From positions 1-24,376 of the IMG/VR virus record IMGVR_UViG_3300023176_001501: a DNA stretch of 24,376 nt; one strand, written 5' to 3'. This document shows positions 17,827-24,325 of the stretch, in pieces. The notes beneath the pieces were generated by a model. The model had not been told where the DNA came from. It searched no databases and saw nothing but the letters and a program-made list of their open reading frames with translations. This DNA is from a virus. The position numbers and the translations under genes were made by a program. The stretch's first letter is position 1. Each line of letters opens with the position of its first letter.

Positions 17827-18138
17827 TTAAGGCGTTGATACAGTAACTGAGCCTAATCCAGTTGTAGCAGAAAGTCCTGTCAGATAAGTGCGATGACTGG
17901 TTAAATCAATAAACTCAGTACCGTCAAAAACCTGCAACACTTCTGTAGTAGTATTGAAGATTAGCGCACCTCTATTAAAACTAAGAGAGTCACGTTCAGT
18001 AGTCGATAATTGCAAAGTATTATCAGGATCTACTGCCCCTAAGTTTATCTCTAAAATACGTACAAGTCTATTAAAAAGCTCAGCAGAAACGGTTTCTCCT
18101 TGAGCTAGCGGCAGTCTAGTTGGCAGTAATTTAGCCAT
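17827..18138 (-). CDS. small virion-associated protein (103 aa)
   Basis: This protein is mostly strand-forming after an N-terminal helix (SAELFNRLVRILEINLG). The segment GALIFNTTTEVLQVFDGTEFIDL is of the type found at the base of phage tail fibre and decoration proteins. The ATG overlaps the stop of the 622-aa gene by one base (TAATG). A role in tail or fibre attachment is likely, judging from phrase and position; the family is not established. Confidence 0.55.
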   Translation of the reverse strand: MAKLLPTRLPLAQGETVSAELFNRLVRILEINLGAVDPDNTLQLSTTERDSLSFNRGALIFNTTTEVLQVFDGTEFIDLTSHRTYLTGLSATTGLGSVTVSTP

Positions 18139-20006
18139 TATCTTCTACCGTCTTGTCGGATATCTATTCTTGTAGCTCCTAGTCTCCAGCCTATTCCTAA
18201 GTTTCCATCATTTGCCGCGTCATCATCCGATTCAAAACGCAAGGCTGCTTGACGGCCGCGAGCTCTAATATTTACTTGACCTGTATTATCTTGTATTGCG
18301 CTTGTAGAAGCTGTAGATAAAGAGTTGCCTGGATAATCTCTAGTTTGTAAAACTATATTAATAGAGCCGTTATTGCTGTTTTGTAAGAATTTAAAATCAG
18401 GTATTAGTCGTCTAATAAATTGGAAACTTTCTCCATCTCCTATATCAAAGTCAGAGCTTTGAATATAAACATTCTCCATAGGCGAACCATCAGCGTCAAA
18501 ACCAAATTCTTGTTGATATAGATAATTATCGGTTGTAGCTCTAGGATAAGGCTCTACACCAGTATCTAGCCAAGCTGTTCTATTTAATTGGCCATATGAC
18601 CAAGCGTCTTCTGCGTAGTTATACAGTACATATCTATCAATATCGTCACTTCCTGAAGAACAATAGAACCAGCCTACTTCTGTTTTATCGTTGATAGTAA
18701 ACGCATGTATTTTATAAGCTTGATTTAGATTTATATCGCTGAATACGTAATTTTGAACTTTACATCTTAAAGTCTGTACAGAGCCGTTATAGACGTAAAA
18801 GTTATTTTCGCTCATCCAAAACGTACCGTTAGGAGCGGTTACACATGCTTTTGGTCCAACAAGACCAATACCTTCGTTGATTAAATTAAGAGCAAAAGTA
18901 TAAGGAGGTCCTACAAACTGCATACTGTATAAAGAAGTATCAGTCCAAATAAGTATTTCTTGTCTTGCTTTGCACGCTCCAATTATTTGCGATCCTGAAG
19001 AAAGTCTTACTTCTCCAGCAGTATTGGTAATTAAAGATTCAAATTCTAATTCGTTTTCTTGATCAGAAAATGCAACCAACATCGGATCAATAGTACCAGT
19101 TCTTGCTCCGCCTGATATTGGATCAGCACCCAAGACTATTAAGTGTCTATCCGTTTCTGAGGTTATTACTTGCAATCCAACTGTTGGAACTAGATTAGCT
19201 CCTGATCGTCCAGATAACTCTACTGCTCTTGTGCTCGTACCGTTGTTCTCGATCCATTCGTAGATACCGCCCCCTCTAACATTCATTATTAAGTTTTCGC
19301 CAAAGTTATCATGTGACCAAAGCCTTAATTGGTTAGAAGCTGAAAGCGAAGTAGAAGAGCCCCACGCTCCAGCACCCCAAGCACCTACGCCATATCCAGT
19401 AGATGCTACATATACATCTAAACCTGTATTGATTTGATAAGCACCTACAGTTGAAGAGCCGCCGTTTCCAGTATCAGAACCATCTGCCAATACTGTATTC
19501 CCATCTGTATCTTTAGCTTCTACGGTATAACTATCGTCATCTATAACAGTTGCTATTTGATATTCTTGATTAAGAACTGTATCGGTAATATTACCGCCTA
19601 AAGATGTTGCTCCTGAAAATGTAACAAAATCGTTTTGAACTGCTCCGTGAGCAGTATCTGAGACAGTTAGTGTCGCATCTCCGTTTACAGCAGCAAAGGT
19701 TACATCTCCTGCTGCGGTTGTTGATCGTATTGGGGTTATGTCGTCGTAATCAGAACCTTCTTGAATATAATATTTTAAATTAGTTCCTAAACCTAAGTAT
19801 TTAGTACCTTCTAAAGAAATCCAAGCATGTAGAGCTCGGCATGTTCCTAAAAAGGTTTGAGATATTAATTTAGTCCAACCGCCAAACTTTTCAGGTCTGC
19901 CTTTTCTAAAACGTACTAAATTGCCGTCAAACCAACCACCCTCGTTATCGTAGTCAGTTCCTTCTCTATTTATGCCTGGTCTAAATACTGCTTTCTGTAA
20001 TGCCAT
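18138..20006 (-). CDS. large structural protein, tail/stabilisation-like (622 aa)
   Basis: The N-terminus, KAVFRPGINREGTDYDNEG then GGWFDGNLVRFRKG and GGWTKL, is of a type common in marine podovirus-like genomes, often called stabilisation or tail protein; I cite this from memory. The body is rich in Gly, Thr, Ser, Asn and Asp and looks like strands, compatible with a beta-propeller or tail-hub protein. An Ala/Gly/Asp insert (about 100-190) looks like an extra beta domain. It starts inside the end of the 155-aa nuclease gene with 26 bases of overlap and no strong ribosome binding site. I see no catalytic motif. Confidence 0.65.
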   Translation of the reverse strand: MALQKAVFRPGINREGTDYDNEGGWFDGNLVRFRKGRPEKFGGWTKLISQTFLGTCRALHAWISLEGTKYLGLGTNLKYYIQEGSDYDDITPIRSTTAAGDVTFAAVNGDATLTVSDTAHGAVQNDFVTFSGATSLGGNITDTVLNQEYQIATVIDDDSYTVEAKDTDGNTVLADGSDTGNGGSSTVGAYQINTGLDVYVASTGYGVGAWGAGAWGSSTSLSASNQLRLWSHDNFGENLIMNVRGGGIYEWIENNGTSTRAVELSGRSGANLVPTVGLQVITSETDRHLIVLGADPISGGARTGTIDPMLVAFSDQENELEFESLITNTAGEVRLSSGSQIIGACKARQEILIWTDTSLYSMQFVGPPYTFALNLINEGIGLVGPKACVTAPNGTFWMSENNFYVYNGSVQTLRCKVQNYVFSDINLNQAYKIHAFTINDKTEVGWFYCSSGSDDIDRYVLYNYAEDAWSYGQLNRTAWLDTGVEPYPRATTDNYLYQQEFGFDADGSPMENVYIQSSDFDIGDGESFQFIRRLIPDFKFLQNSNNGSINIVLQTRDYPGNSLSTASTSAIQDNTGQVNIRARGRQAALRFESDDDAANDGNLGIGWRLGATRIDIRQDGRR

Positions 20007-20846: not shown

Positions 20847-21293
20847 TTAAACAAGTCGCCAGTCTTTTGCTTCAAAAAGCAAAGCTTCAGCCTCTCTTCT
20901 TCTTACTAATCCAGCTAATACTTCGCCGTTAGCCTTGTTCCATCTTTTAATTTGATTAGGAACTTCTTCGTATTCGCTATTATTTAATTTTTTTAATAAA
21001 GTTGATTTCTTTAAATTAACTGGGCCTAAGTTATAAGTCCAAGAAACCAACGAATCAAATTGTTGTTGATTTAAAGGTACATGCACATAATCTTTTACAT
21101 ATTGCTCGTATTCTTCTTCTAACTCTCGTTGTAACATAAAGTCAGCTTTATCTTGGCTCCACTTGTCGCCTTCTTCTACGCCTTTAGTATGACCGTAACC
21201 AATAGTCCAAACACCAGCAGGACACTTGTAAGCTTCAAGCTCACATCCTTCAAAGTGTTTTATTAACTCCAAACCTTCGTCTGAGATATGCAT
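20847..21293 (-). CDS. GH24 lysozyme endolysin
   Basis: This 148-aa enzyme cleaves peptidoglycan between N-acetylmuramic acid and N-acetylglucosamine. The catalytic triad of the T4/P22-type family is visible as E15 (HFEG), C24 (KCPAG) and T30 (VWTIGYGHT), with the usual eight- and five-residue spacing. The SWTYNLG and GLVRRREAEALLF motifs of the family follow. There is no signal peptide or N-terminal membrane anchor, so it should need the holin to reach the wall. AAGGAG is six bases before ATG, and its start is two bases after the stop of the holin gene. Confidence 0.93.
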   Translation of the reverse strand: MHISDEGLELIKHFEGCELEAYKCPAGVWTIGYGHTKGVEEGDKWSQDKADFMLQRELEEEYEQYVKDYVHVPLNQQQFDSLVSWTYNLGPVNLKKSTLLKKLNNSEYEEVPNQIKRWNKANGEVLAGLVRRREAEALLFEAKDWRLV

Positions 21294-21295
21294 GT

Positions 21296-21790
21296 TTACT
21301 CCTTATCAGGGGTGTTGGATGCTCCAAAATAGAATGATATGACAGCACTTGCTAAACCGCCAAGATAGCCTAGTACCAAGTTGATAAGAGCCTCAGAATT
21401 TTGTTCGGGAGGTTGAATGGTGACTAAAAATATATAGCCAAGAAATCCACCCAAAGTTGCGATCCCCATAATTCTAGCAGTCCAGTCTTTGCTAAAGTTT
21501 TTTCTTGCATCTTGCTTGTCTTTAACTTCAAGCTCAAAGACATCTACTTCAAGTTCTTTCATTTGTAACTCAAAGTCTTTTTCTGCTTTTTTAAGCTCAA
21601 GCATTTGAGCTGGGGTTGCTTGTTGAATGCCTTGTTCTATAGCTTTTGGAGTATTAGGAACACCTAAAACATCTGCTATAACAGATCCTGCCATTCCGCC
21701 AAGTGGACCAGCTAAAGCAGATCCTAAAGTGGGAGCAACGCTGCCAACAACATTTTTCAGTTTACCTGATAATAAATTTTTAAAAGCCAT
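21296..21790 (-). CDS. GTA-type 3-TM holin-like protein
   Basis: This protein resembles the GTA_holin_3TM family (PF11351), holins of gene transfer agents and phages. It has a hydrophobic Gly/Ala-rich N-terminal segment (about 15-43, VGSVAPTLGSALAGPLGGMA), a charged central helix (KKAEKDFELQMKELEVDV) and two C-terminal membrane segments (about 107-124 and 135-155, ending GGLASAVISFYFGASNT). It directly precedes the lysozyme. It should form pores that let the lysozyme through. The start has only weak sites upstream, so translation may be coupled to the XhlA-like gene. Confidence 0.85.
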   Translation of the reverse strand: MAFKNLLSGKLKNVVGSVAPTLGSALAGPLGGMAGSVIADVLGVPNTPKAIEQGIQQATPAQMLELKKAEKDFELQMKELEVDVFELEVKDKQDARKNFSKDWTARIMGIATLGGFLGYIFLVTIQPPEQNSEALINLVLGYLGGLASAVISFYFGASNTPDKE

Positions 21791-22007: not shown

Positions 22008-22364
22008 TTAGTTTGCTAATGGGTTTTTATCTTTTTCTAATTTATCTTCTAAATTTTTAATTTGTTTTTCTAGGCTTTCTTTAGAGTTCATATGTTGCTC
22101 TTTTAGTAAAGCCCAATCCTTGTTGTTCTGAGTTACATTATCCTCAAGAACTTTAATTAGTTCAAGTTTTTGTAATTTCTCATTTATTACCAATAACTCA
22201 GCTTGAATAGCGTTTATATCTTCTTCGTAAGATACTGCGGTTTGCGATTCCAAGGCTTCTAGTCTTTGCACATACCCAGCACCAGCGTAACCTACGCCAG
22301 CAATGGTGGCTAATAAAGTTCCAAGAGCTACTAACTGAGCTAATTTTGATTCTAAGAAGTTCAT
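22008..22364 (-). CDS. inner-membrane coiled-coil protein, spanin-like (118 aa)
   Basis: The N-terminus has one membrane segment (about 7-28, KLAQLVALGTLLATIAGVGYA) and the rest is a long charged coiled coil (QAELLVINEKLQKLELIK, KESLEKQIKNLEDKLEKD). This is the layout of an inner-membrane spanin (Rz) with a periplasmic helical domain. No outer-membrane lipoprotein partner (o-spanin) was recognised nearby. It overlaps the 654-aa gene in ATGA form and precedes the XhlA-like gene. A structural bridge in the lysis or virion complex is another possibility. Confidence 0.5.
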   Translation of the reverse strand: MNFLESKLAQLVALGTLLATIAGVGYAGAGYVQRLEALESQTAVSYEEDINAIQAELLVINEKLQKLELIKVLEDNVTQNNKDWALLKEQHMNSKESLEKQIKNLEDKLEKDKNPLAN

Positions 22365-24325
22365 AAATTTACCTGCGATTGTAAGATGGTTTGCATCTTA
22401 TTTATATTTGTATTGGCTAAATTGTAATATGCGTTAGTATTATCATCAATCCTTGCATCTGTATAAATAATTTTGCTTTCATACCAAAGATTTTGGTCTG
22501 GTATAGAAACATCTTTATAACGGTTAAAACCTGGCACATATCCAAGATAAGCGACAAAAGCTGTTTGATCTGCATACTCACCAGATTCTTGTTGCTCTTC
22601 TTCCATTTCTTCTTGTTCTTGTTTTAGATTATTGGCTAATATCTGATCAGCTATCTTATCTGCCTCAGATGATGTCATTACATTAGAGGTAGCGGTTAAT
22701 ATTTGATCTTGCATGTCGTTAATTTGCACATCAGACATAACCGCATTATCTAAAGTAAAAAGTGGCGTGATAGTTATAGAGTTATCTCCTATAGAATCAC
22801 TTAACTGTAATACCGTATTGTTTTGCATATTAGCTGACATTATCTGATCAGATATAGAGGGAGAAGATGTCGTACTAATACCTGCGGCCTGAGCATCGTT
22901 ACCAATATTATTTTGTTTGGTATAACTCTCGTTAGCAGTTTGTAAGGTTTGAGCTACAACTTTCAAAGCACTAGCAATACTATTACCTTTGGGTGTTTCT
23001 TCAAAAGTTTCTATAACTTCTTCAATAAACTCTTCTTCAATAATTTCTTCAAAATTCTCTTCTACGATTAATTCTTCTACAAATTCTTCTTCAATAATTT
23101 CTTCTATAGGTTCTTCTTCAATAAATTCTTCTATTTCTTCGATTATTTCAGTTGTTGTAAAAATTTCTAAAAGTTCCTCTGCGTCAAAAACATTTATTGG
23201 AACTGTTTGAGTTACAGGTTCATACGTATCTAATACATCTATTATTGGATCTATAAAAATATCTTCTTGGTAAGTTTCATTAAAATCAAACTGTTCAAAT
23301 TGCTCTTCTTCTACAGGATCGGTATAAAGAATCACTTCATCTTCTGTAATTTGAAATGTTTCGTATTCCATAGGTGCGGTTTGTATAGCCATAATTCCAA
23401 TAACTTCTGGTATATACCCTGAACAAGTTGGGCTATATTGTGGATCTTTTTCACATTCATAATCACGATAGGCTTGTTCGTAACCACTGCATTCGGTTGA
23501 ATATAAAGCATCAATACTACATTGTTGATCCTGATAGGCTTGGTCATACCCACTACAGCTAGTTGAATACAGAGCATCTAGATTACATTGTTGAGCTAAG
23601 TAAGCCTCTTCATAACCATCGCAACTAGAATCATTAAGAGGATCGCTGCAATCAAGACCGTCTCCTTCTCCGTACAAAGAACCGCCAGCTTCTAGATTGG
23701 TATTTTTATCTGAAGCATTCCAATCATAACTATAACAATTAGTACCGTTAGTTGAGCCTGTATTGCATTCATCGTGAAAATAATAAGTATAGGTTTGGCT
23801 AGAGTTTCCTTGCTCACCAATAAGAACATCGTGATTAATGATATCTAAATCACCGTATCTAATATCGTAAGTATTATTGTTCCAAAGTATTACCTCAAAA
23901 CTATTATAAGAACCTTGGCGATAATACTCTTGCATCTTGTACCAACCAAAAACAATCTTGTCGTTAAAGTTTTTAGCAGCCATTTTTGCATTCGCATCTA
24001 CCGCTATAAGATCAGTCCAAAACGGATATATGGTGTAATTAAATTGAGCTAATGGATCAGGTGTGTAGTCATTGCACCCGGTCCCACTTGAACCAAAATG
24101 TAAGCAGCCGTTGGTAGCCATTCTTGCAGTAGAGAAAGTTTGTTCGTAAAAGGTAAAATCAAAACCTAGATTAAATGCGGAAGATATAGAATCATCGCCT
24201 GATGTTAGCCAAGTGACATCGGTTTGATTGGTTAAATCTACAAGAGATTGATTAGATTCGTATATGTATTGAGGAAAAGCTTGTAAACAAAAAAGGGCTA
24301 TTCCCCATAAAACTCTTTTTCGCAT
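22361..24325 (-). CDS. secreted NIDO-like, cysteine-repeat, acidic protein (654 aa)
   Basis: A basic start and hydrophobic stretch (MRKRVLWGIALFCLQAF) form a signal peptide. Residues about 45-190 resemble a NIDO (nidogen-like) domain: ATNGCLHFG, YPFWTDLI, FGWYKMQEY, FEVILWNNNTYDIRYGDL. Three 22-residue cysteine repeats (CxGYxxAYxxxxC, 235-300) follow, then a Glu/Phe/Ile-rich acidic region (about 383-443) and a Gln/Glu-rich stretch near 569-580. The order suggests an extracellular or envelope protein. The cysteine repeats could form disulfides outside the cytoplasm. It is the first gene of the leftward lysis/virion block in this window. I cannot assign function; adhesion, surface modification or a spanin-like role are guesses. 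The ribosome binding site is weak (ACGAATAAACA), so the start is less certain. Confidence 0.6.
   Translation of the reverse strand: MRKRVLWGIALFCLQAFPQYIYESNQSLVDLTNQTDVTWLTSGDDSISSAFNLGFDFTFYEQTFSTARMATNGCLHFGSSGTGCNDYTPDPLAQFNYTIYPFWTDLIAVDANAKMAAKNFNDKIVFGWYKMQEYYRQGSYNSFEVILWNNNTYDIRYGDLDIINHDVLIGEQGNSSQTYTYYFHDECNTGSTNGTNCYSYDWNASDKNTNLEAGGSLYGEGDGLDCSDPLNDSSCDGYEEAYLAQQCNLDALYSTSCSGYDQAYQDQQCSIDALYSTECSGYEQAYRDYECEKDPQYSPTCSGYIPEVIGIMAIQTAPMEYETFQITEDEVILYTDPVEEEQFEQFDFNETYQEDIFIDPIIDVLDTYEPVTQTVPINVFDAEELLEIFTTTEIIEEIEEFIEEEPIEEIIEEEFVEELIVEENFEEIIEEEFIEEVIETFEETPKGNSIASALKVVAQTLQTANESYTKQNNIGNDAQAAGISTTSSPSISDQIMSANMQNNTVLQLSDSIGDNSITITPLFTLDNAVMSDVQINDMQDQILTATSNVMTSSEADKIADQILANNLKQEQEEMEEEQQESGEYADQTAFVAYLGYVPGFNRYKDVSIPDQNLWYESKIIYTDARIDDNTNAYYNLANTNINKMQTILQSQVNL
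22997..23179 (-). repeat. acidic low-complexity coding repeat
   Basis: Inside the 654-aa protein, residues 383-443 repeat the pattern E-E-[FIL]-[IV]-E-E, with runs such as IEEIEEFIEEEPIEEIIEEE. The DNA carries matching repeats of TTCTTC/GAAGAA. This may bind Ca2+ or mimic DNA. Confidence 0.6.
23426..23623 (-). repeat. three 66-bp coding repeats (22-aa Cys repeat)
   Basis: Three successive 22-codon units, beginning CDGYEEAY, CSGYDQAY and CSGYEQAY and ending before a fourth CSGY (residues 235-300), are visible. Each contains two cysteines and a D-x-x-Y-S pattern. The conserved spacing suggests a repeated small disulfide-linked module. Confidence 0.75.

Follow-up and report, generated by a model that had tools for sequence, protein, structure and literature searches.

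A phage gene with a NIDO-type head lies in a three-gene cassette of marine phages and may serve a recognition complex in the host envelope

NIDO is an animal-adhesion-type domain. What would a phage gain from such a domain in a protein that looks secreted, carries cysteine repeats and a glutamate-rich zone, and is encoded close to lysis genes? The locus that raises this question was analyzed as a window of 24,376 nucleotides, positions 1 to 24,376 of the linear IMG/VR virus record IMGVR_UViG_3300023176_001501, which is probably a fragment. Its gene at 18138-20006 encodes a phrog_3287 virion structural protein with relatives in, among others, HTVC027P, HTVC023P, and CRP-901. Annotations of these relatives name stabilization or needle-head proteins, which points to a podovirus as the virus of the window. 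The gene under study is called B here, and its neighbors A and C (Table 1).

Table 1. Features of the A-B-C genes and the adjoining lysis neighborhood in the window (B residues are numbered from the start codon)
Feature	Position	Strand	Remarks
Phage lysozyme (endolysin)	20847..21293	-	PF00959, E 1.5e-49; phrog_7
164-aa phrog_1544 membrane protein, holin candidate	21296..21790	-	E 2.3e-26; phrog_1544 has no assigned function
70-aa protein of the lysis neighborhood with C-terminal TM segment	21794..22006	-	XhlA-like layout in our reading
Gene C, 118 aa, N-terminal TM segment and coiled coil (predicted)	22008..22364	-	overlaps B by 4 nt
Gene B, secreted protein with NIDO head, Cys repeats, and acidic zone	22361..24325	-	654 aa; ATG 24325, stop 22361; ORF complete
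B residues 1-19, predicted Sec-type signal peptide	24269..24325	-	signal rule; cleavage position approximate
B residues 21-220, NIDO-superfamily domain, aligned core ~37-174	23666..24265	-	hhalign 99.3; AF2 block-mean pLDDT 73-94
B residues 226-301, Cys-repeat array, helical in AF2 model	23423..23650	-	
B residues 336-445, disordered acidic Glu zone, maximum at 381-440	22991..23320	-	
B residues 446-654, C-terminal region	22364..22990	-	last 75 residues recur in other-headed B proteins
Gene A, 3' end, VGAVKVLYTRKTKTNKQCEKEFYGE*, last 25 codons, cut by contig end	24298..24375	-	overlaps B by 28 nt; compare A of locus L009

The original prediction gave B a signal peptide, 22-residue cysteine repeats, a glutamate-rich zone, and a place near lysis genes, and all four descriptions were borne out. 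The N-terminus, MRKRVLWGIALFCLQAFPQYIYE, fits a Sec-type signal. Cysteines are paired at residues 226/235, 247/257, 269/279, and 291/301 with a period of 22 residues, and the array is also visible in the DNA as a 66-nt repeat with 73% identity. By a pattern count, relatives of B carry from about one to seven copies, and this variation in copy number marks the region as a true repeat array. Glutamate makes up 47% of residues 381-440, and the net charge of mature B is -99 (median among relatives, -114). In the AF2 model, the acidic zone is disordered and the C-terminus is helical with mixed confidence. In one relative (L068:3204-5317), the B gene is broken into frames of 524 and 187 residues by a frameshift that is either real or a sequencing error.

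The identity of the head required a less direct approach. At the Pfam gathering score, PF06119 matched neither the window's B nor the relatives scanned, and direct searches of B itself against Pfam, PHROGs, NCBIfam, INPHARED, and the sequences of solved structures returned nothing significant. Because PF06119 missed B, true bacterial NIDO sequences were collected for a profile-profile comparison. With hhalign, the phage head aligned to 39 bacterial PF06119 domains with a probability of 99.3 (E 2.8e-20, 135 columns, residues ~37-174), while none of six controls exceeded 0.4; among these were the phage B C-terminus, the phage repeats, the A family, carbohydrate-binding-like heads, and regions that flank NIDO in the bacterial proteins compared. 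Structure prediction with AF2 was useless with 8 alignment rows (pLDDT 29) but usable with 97, when it placed a beta-rich domain at residues 21-220 (block-mean pLDDT 73-94). Against the PDB, neither Foldseek nor VIA-align yielded a significant match (best Z 4.9), in a library that may or may not contain a solved NIDO structure; a structure search of a viral library turned up a single strong match, from a phage (A0A6J7WUF5, E 5.6e-10). No tail-fiber fold was found in these structure searches, which are a weak test of that point. The NIDO-like domain of the original prediction is thus upheld at the profile level: judged by sequence comparison, the head of B is a real but divergent NIDO domain. 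The label is valid for the superfamily only, since the profile comparison was positive while the PF06119 cut-off was missed. Bacterial and animal PF06119 proteins share with the head of B a homologous domain, the same order of beta-strands, and NG and FWxD-type motifs. They differ in that the phage head falls below the Pfam cut-off, is fused to cysteine repeats, an acidic zone, and a phage-specific C-terminus, and is encoded within a phage triad.

That triad changes how the gene is to be read. The original prediction was right about the architecture of the gene, but it missed that B is no single oddity: B is the middle of a three-gene cassette, A-B-C, and its NIDO head is one among several that can be exchanged. 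A is a protein of ~340 residues with a signal peptide, a Thr/Asn/Ser-rich tract, and a four-cysteine domain of ~100 residues, and C has ~118 residues with one predicted TM segment and a predicted coiled coil. The genes of the triad overlap tightly, as they do in the window. Relatives of B were encoded in 333 IMG/VR stretches in one alignment-based scan, and at least 597 stretches carry the A domain. Among 268 fetched loci with A, 202 had a candidate for B and 179 a candidate for C; many of the loci missing either seem to run off the contig, and the counts are non-independent, as some loci overlap or share a contig. The order A-B-C was kept in nearly all IMG/VR loci having flanks, and it stayed constant while the loci otherwise differed in gene content. 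The triad is present in hundreds of ocean phage contigs in IMG/VR, and the search of marine viromes that had been suggested for this architecture found its relatives to be common. Loci L009 and L005 have strongly different tail and structural genes around closely related B proteins, which suggests movement of the triad from one phage background to another. No description of it was found in the literature searched, which mostly omits subscription journals, and the cassette is apparently new. The A domain also occurs in 26 genome-assembly contigs, mostly marine MAGs across unrelated taxa (L097-L122) with names such as Trichodesmium, Woesearchaeota, Euryarchaeota, and Bacteroidetes. An origin of the domain in host chromosomes was considered and set aside, these matches being read as probable phage contigs in MAG bins. 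In one A domain (L046:9579-9983), two conserved cysteines are lost jointly (LAQD and TPAP vs LCQD and TPCP), which suggests that the two form a disulfide pair.

Are these proteins exported? A simple, home-made signal-peptide rule was matched by 193 of 248 A proteins and 186 of 202 B proteins, vs 15 of 521 background ORFs (>=150 aa). Together with the paired cysteines, these matches strongly suggest that A and B leave the cytoplasm.

Using the A domain, the triad was also found in cultured phages: the Pelagibacter phages HTVC202P (gp24-26), HTVC115P, HTVC033P, HTVC023P, and Baldr, which are of unrelated types, and the Kyanoviridae phage Mosig. A is present as well in the Roseobacter phages CRP-207 and CRP-810. 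In the set tested, the homology of A is certain (E 7e-21 to 9e-53), and C was found at the expected place in Mosig, HTVC033P, and HTVC202P (7e-11 to 2e-8). The B head of pelagiphages differs from NIDO. It has weak similarity to CBM_4_9 in HTVC202P and S28-C10, and B is annotated as a "putative carbohydrate binding domain" protein in HTVC033P and S28-C10. The strong negative charge is kept in pelagiphage B proteins, as is the signal-peptide-like start as far as tested. Window-type B ends in 75 residues that are seen again in B proteins bearing other heads at four loci (L101, L106, L100, and L099); these rank above the first unrelated ORF among ~1,400 in a search with this segment; between the window-type C-terminus and B proteins of cultured pelagiphages, homology was not significant.

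Heads also change within the NIDO class. Between L030 and L039, identity is 0.91 in A, 0.90 in the B C-terminus, and 0.98 in C, with 0.62 in the head; between L213 and L220, the head is 94% identical and the C-terminus 37%. Such comparisons of sequences indicate that NIDO heads recombine against constant neighbors and are exchanged between phages. Across the class, mean identity of the head is 0.65. The divergence of A follows that of the B C-terminus slightly more than that of the adjacent head (0.61 vs 0.52; 91% of subsamples), a weak hint that A and the B C-terminus interact.

Variable heads of this kind could also belong to a virion protein, with B as a receptor-binding or tail-associated component, an interpretation already given to carbohydrate-binding proteins of marine phages. 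In metaviromic islands, no identifiable genes were more frequent than those for "putative carbohydrate binding domain containing protein", and host recognition was their assigned role (PMC3909814); one triad B protein carries this same annotation. In addition, the triad is often near tail genes. However, signal-like N-termini at the frequencies found for A and B are unexpected for tail proteins assembled in the cytoplasm, B overlaps the gene of the membrane-anchored C, and the structure searches, weak as they are on this point, matched no tail-fiber fold. We consider a place in the virion quite improbable. BAQ94057 of S28-C10 and gp45 of HTVC033P are middle genes of the same triad and resemble the window's B in their exported-type N-terminus and acidic zone. 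They differ in the head, and such proteins were assigned to virion host recognition, with the triad unrecognized, in the island study (PMC3909814). The signal peptides suggest instead an exported role for those "carbohydrate binding" marine-phage proteins that are members of the triad.

The genomic neighborhood raises a second alternative. A lysozyme-type gene lies within seven genes in 46 of 51 NIDO-class loci with flanks (in a few of the 46 it is a large protein bearing a lysozyme domain), and many loci also have holin-like and spanin genes. In the window, B is near the genes for the phage lysozyme and the phrog_1544 protein. This neighborhood suggests late expression, and a periplasmic A-B-C could be an accessory lysis factor. 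It might set the time of lysis, in the way T4 RI acts with its holin, or make the outer membrane weaker, for instance if the polyacidic zone binds divalent cations or the head binds peptidoglycan. The extreme acidity of B and the single TM segment and coiled coil of C speak for such a role. Swappable recognition heads would not be expected of a generic lysis factor, however, and no annotated lysis gene is directly beside the triad in Mosig or HTVC202P. Accessory lysis is, in our estimate, unlikely, though ranked second among the explanations.

A narrower version would make the triad a spanin substitute, with C in the part of the inner-membrane spanin and its outer-membrane partner supplied by A or B. 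Like the Rz/Rz1 spanins, C combines a TM segment with a coiled coil within a lysis region, an i-spanin-like layout, and the window showed no candidate lipoprotein, a lack that means little in a fragment. The difference is that separate Rz-like genes adjoin the triad in the same phages: a family of Rz-like i-spanins (phrog_739, 1.5e-10) occurs near it in 20 of 51 NIDO-class loci, and L023 has an Rz-like lipoprotein (phrog_812, 2.6e-11). Consequently, simple substitution for spanins does not account for the triad, and we rank this explanation last, as highly improbable. Two small genes of these neighborhoods deserve mention. At L023:12599-12799, the interval from the triad to the spanin-like gene encodes a 67-residue protein whose start is lipobox-like, and at L019:4052-4567, two genes downstream of C, we read a peroxiredoxin-like gene.

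The explanation that we rank first, ahead of accessory lysis, a virion protein, and spanin substitution, is that A-B-C is a putative recognition complex, anchored in the envelope, that would act on the surface of the host in receptor masking, exclusion, or adhesion. We hold it tentatively, at somewhat less than even confidence. It is drawn from an anatomy of export, an anchored partner, a spacer, and exchangeable heads. B would be the recognition part of a three-protein extracytoplasmic complex, in which A and B would leave via Sec and C would be anchored in the inner membrane and extend its coiled coil into the periplasm. The C-terminal region of B may dock with A, C, or both, its long disordered acidic zone would act as a spacer, and its disulfide-rich repeats would bear the exchangeable head, NIDO here and carbohydrate-binding-like elsewhere. 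The head would bind something of the host envelope or cell surface. The likeliest use would be masking or alteration of surface glycans or of the receptor that the phage itself uses, which would keep siblings from re-infecting the cell and released virions from sticking to dying cells and debris. Alternatively, the complex could serve the adhesion of infected cells. Surface remodeling, exclusion of other phages, and binding of released virions to debris, which the original prediction put forward as possible roles, all agree with what was observed.

Several lines of evidence favor this recognition complex. The conserved order amid differing genes and the tight overlaps argue for it, as do the signal peptides on A and B and the paired cysteines. 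So does the head, with its NIDO homology, its exchange between phages, and the carbohydrate-binding-like heads that fill the same slot in cultured pelagiphages. The assignment to host recognition of genes annotated like one of the B proteins (PMC3909814) points the same way, as does the late expression that the lysis neighborhood suggests, and there is a precedent in Llp of phage T5, an exported protein that blocks the phage's own receptor (PMC9586334). The likeness to Llp is in the way of working only, a phage-encoded exported protein acting on the surface of the infected cell itself; no sequence relation is claimed. Llp is a small lipoprotein from a single gene and is made early, while lysis-linked genes are usually late, which counts against the parallel. 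Other points also weigh against the proposal: the NIDO head is well conserved, unlike what rapid co-evolution with a receptor alone would give, and the coevolution of A with the B C-terminus is weak. Pelagiphages are also known to encode curli (T8SS) modules (PMC9599517, PMC7029224), which resemble the triad as a multigene exported surface system common to pelagiphage families. Their proteins are unlike those of the triad, and in the loci examined no curli gene was annotated or clustered beside it. In the cultured phages, annotation showed neither CsgG nor CsgF there, and a curli module was set aside as the identity of the triad.

Genes with the pattern of the triad are abundant in marine phages, including cultured SAR11 phages, although their products are labeled hypothetical or have been taken for receptor-binding proteins of the virion. 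Should infected cells export the complex, part of the variable recognition repertoire now read as host range would reflect modification of infected cells instead. This idea is testable in phages already in culture. A broader and more doubtful possibility is that A-B-C is an undescribed, ocean-wide system shared by unrelated phage types, in which an envelope-anchored, adhesin-like complex with plug-in heads would be placed on infected SAR11 and other marine cells. Receptor-binding diversity would then have a counterpart outside the virion, to which some "carbohydrate-binding receptor-binding proteins" of marine phages would belong. The triad also has a CRP-207-type variant (L123-L202), in which the slot of B holds a shorter protein of 273-278 residues with neither a NIDO head nor a strong glutamate zone. 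Relatives of the A domain of this variant are encoded in 234 IMG/VR stretches.
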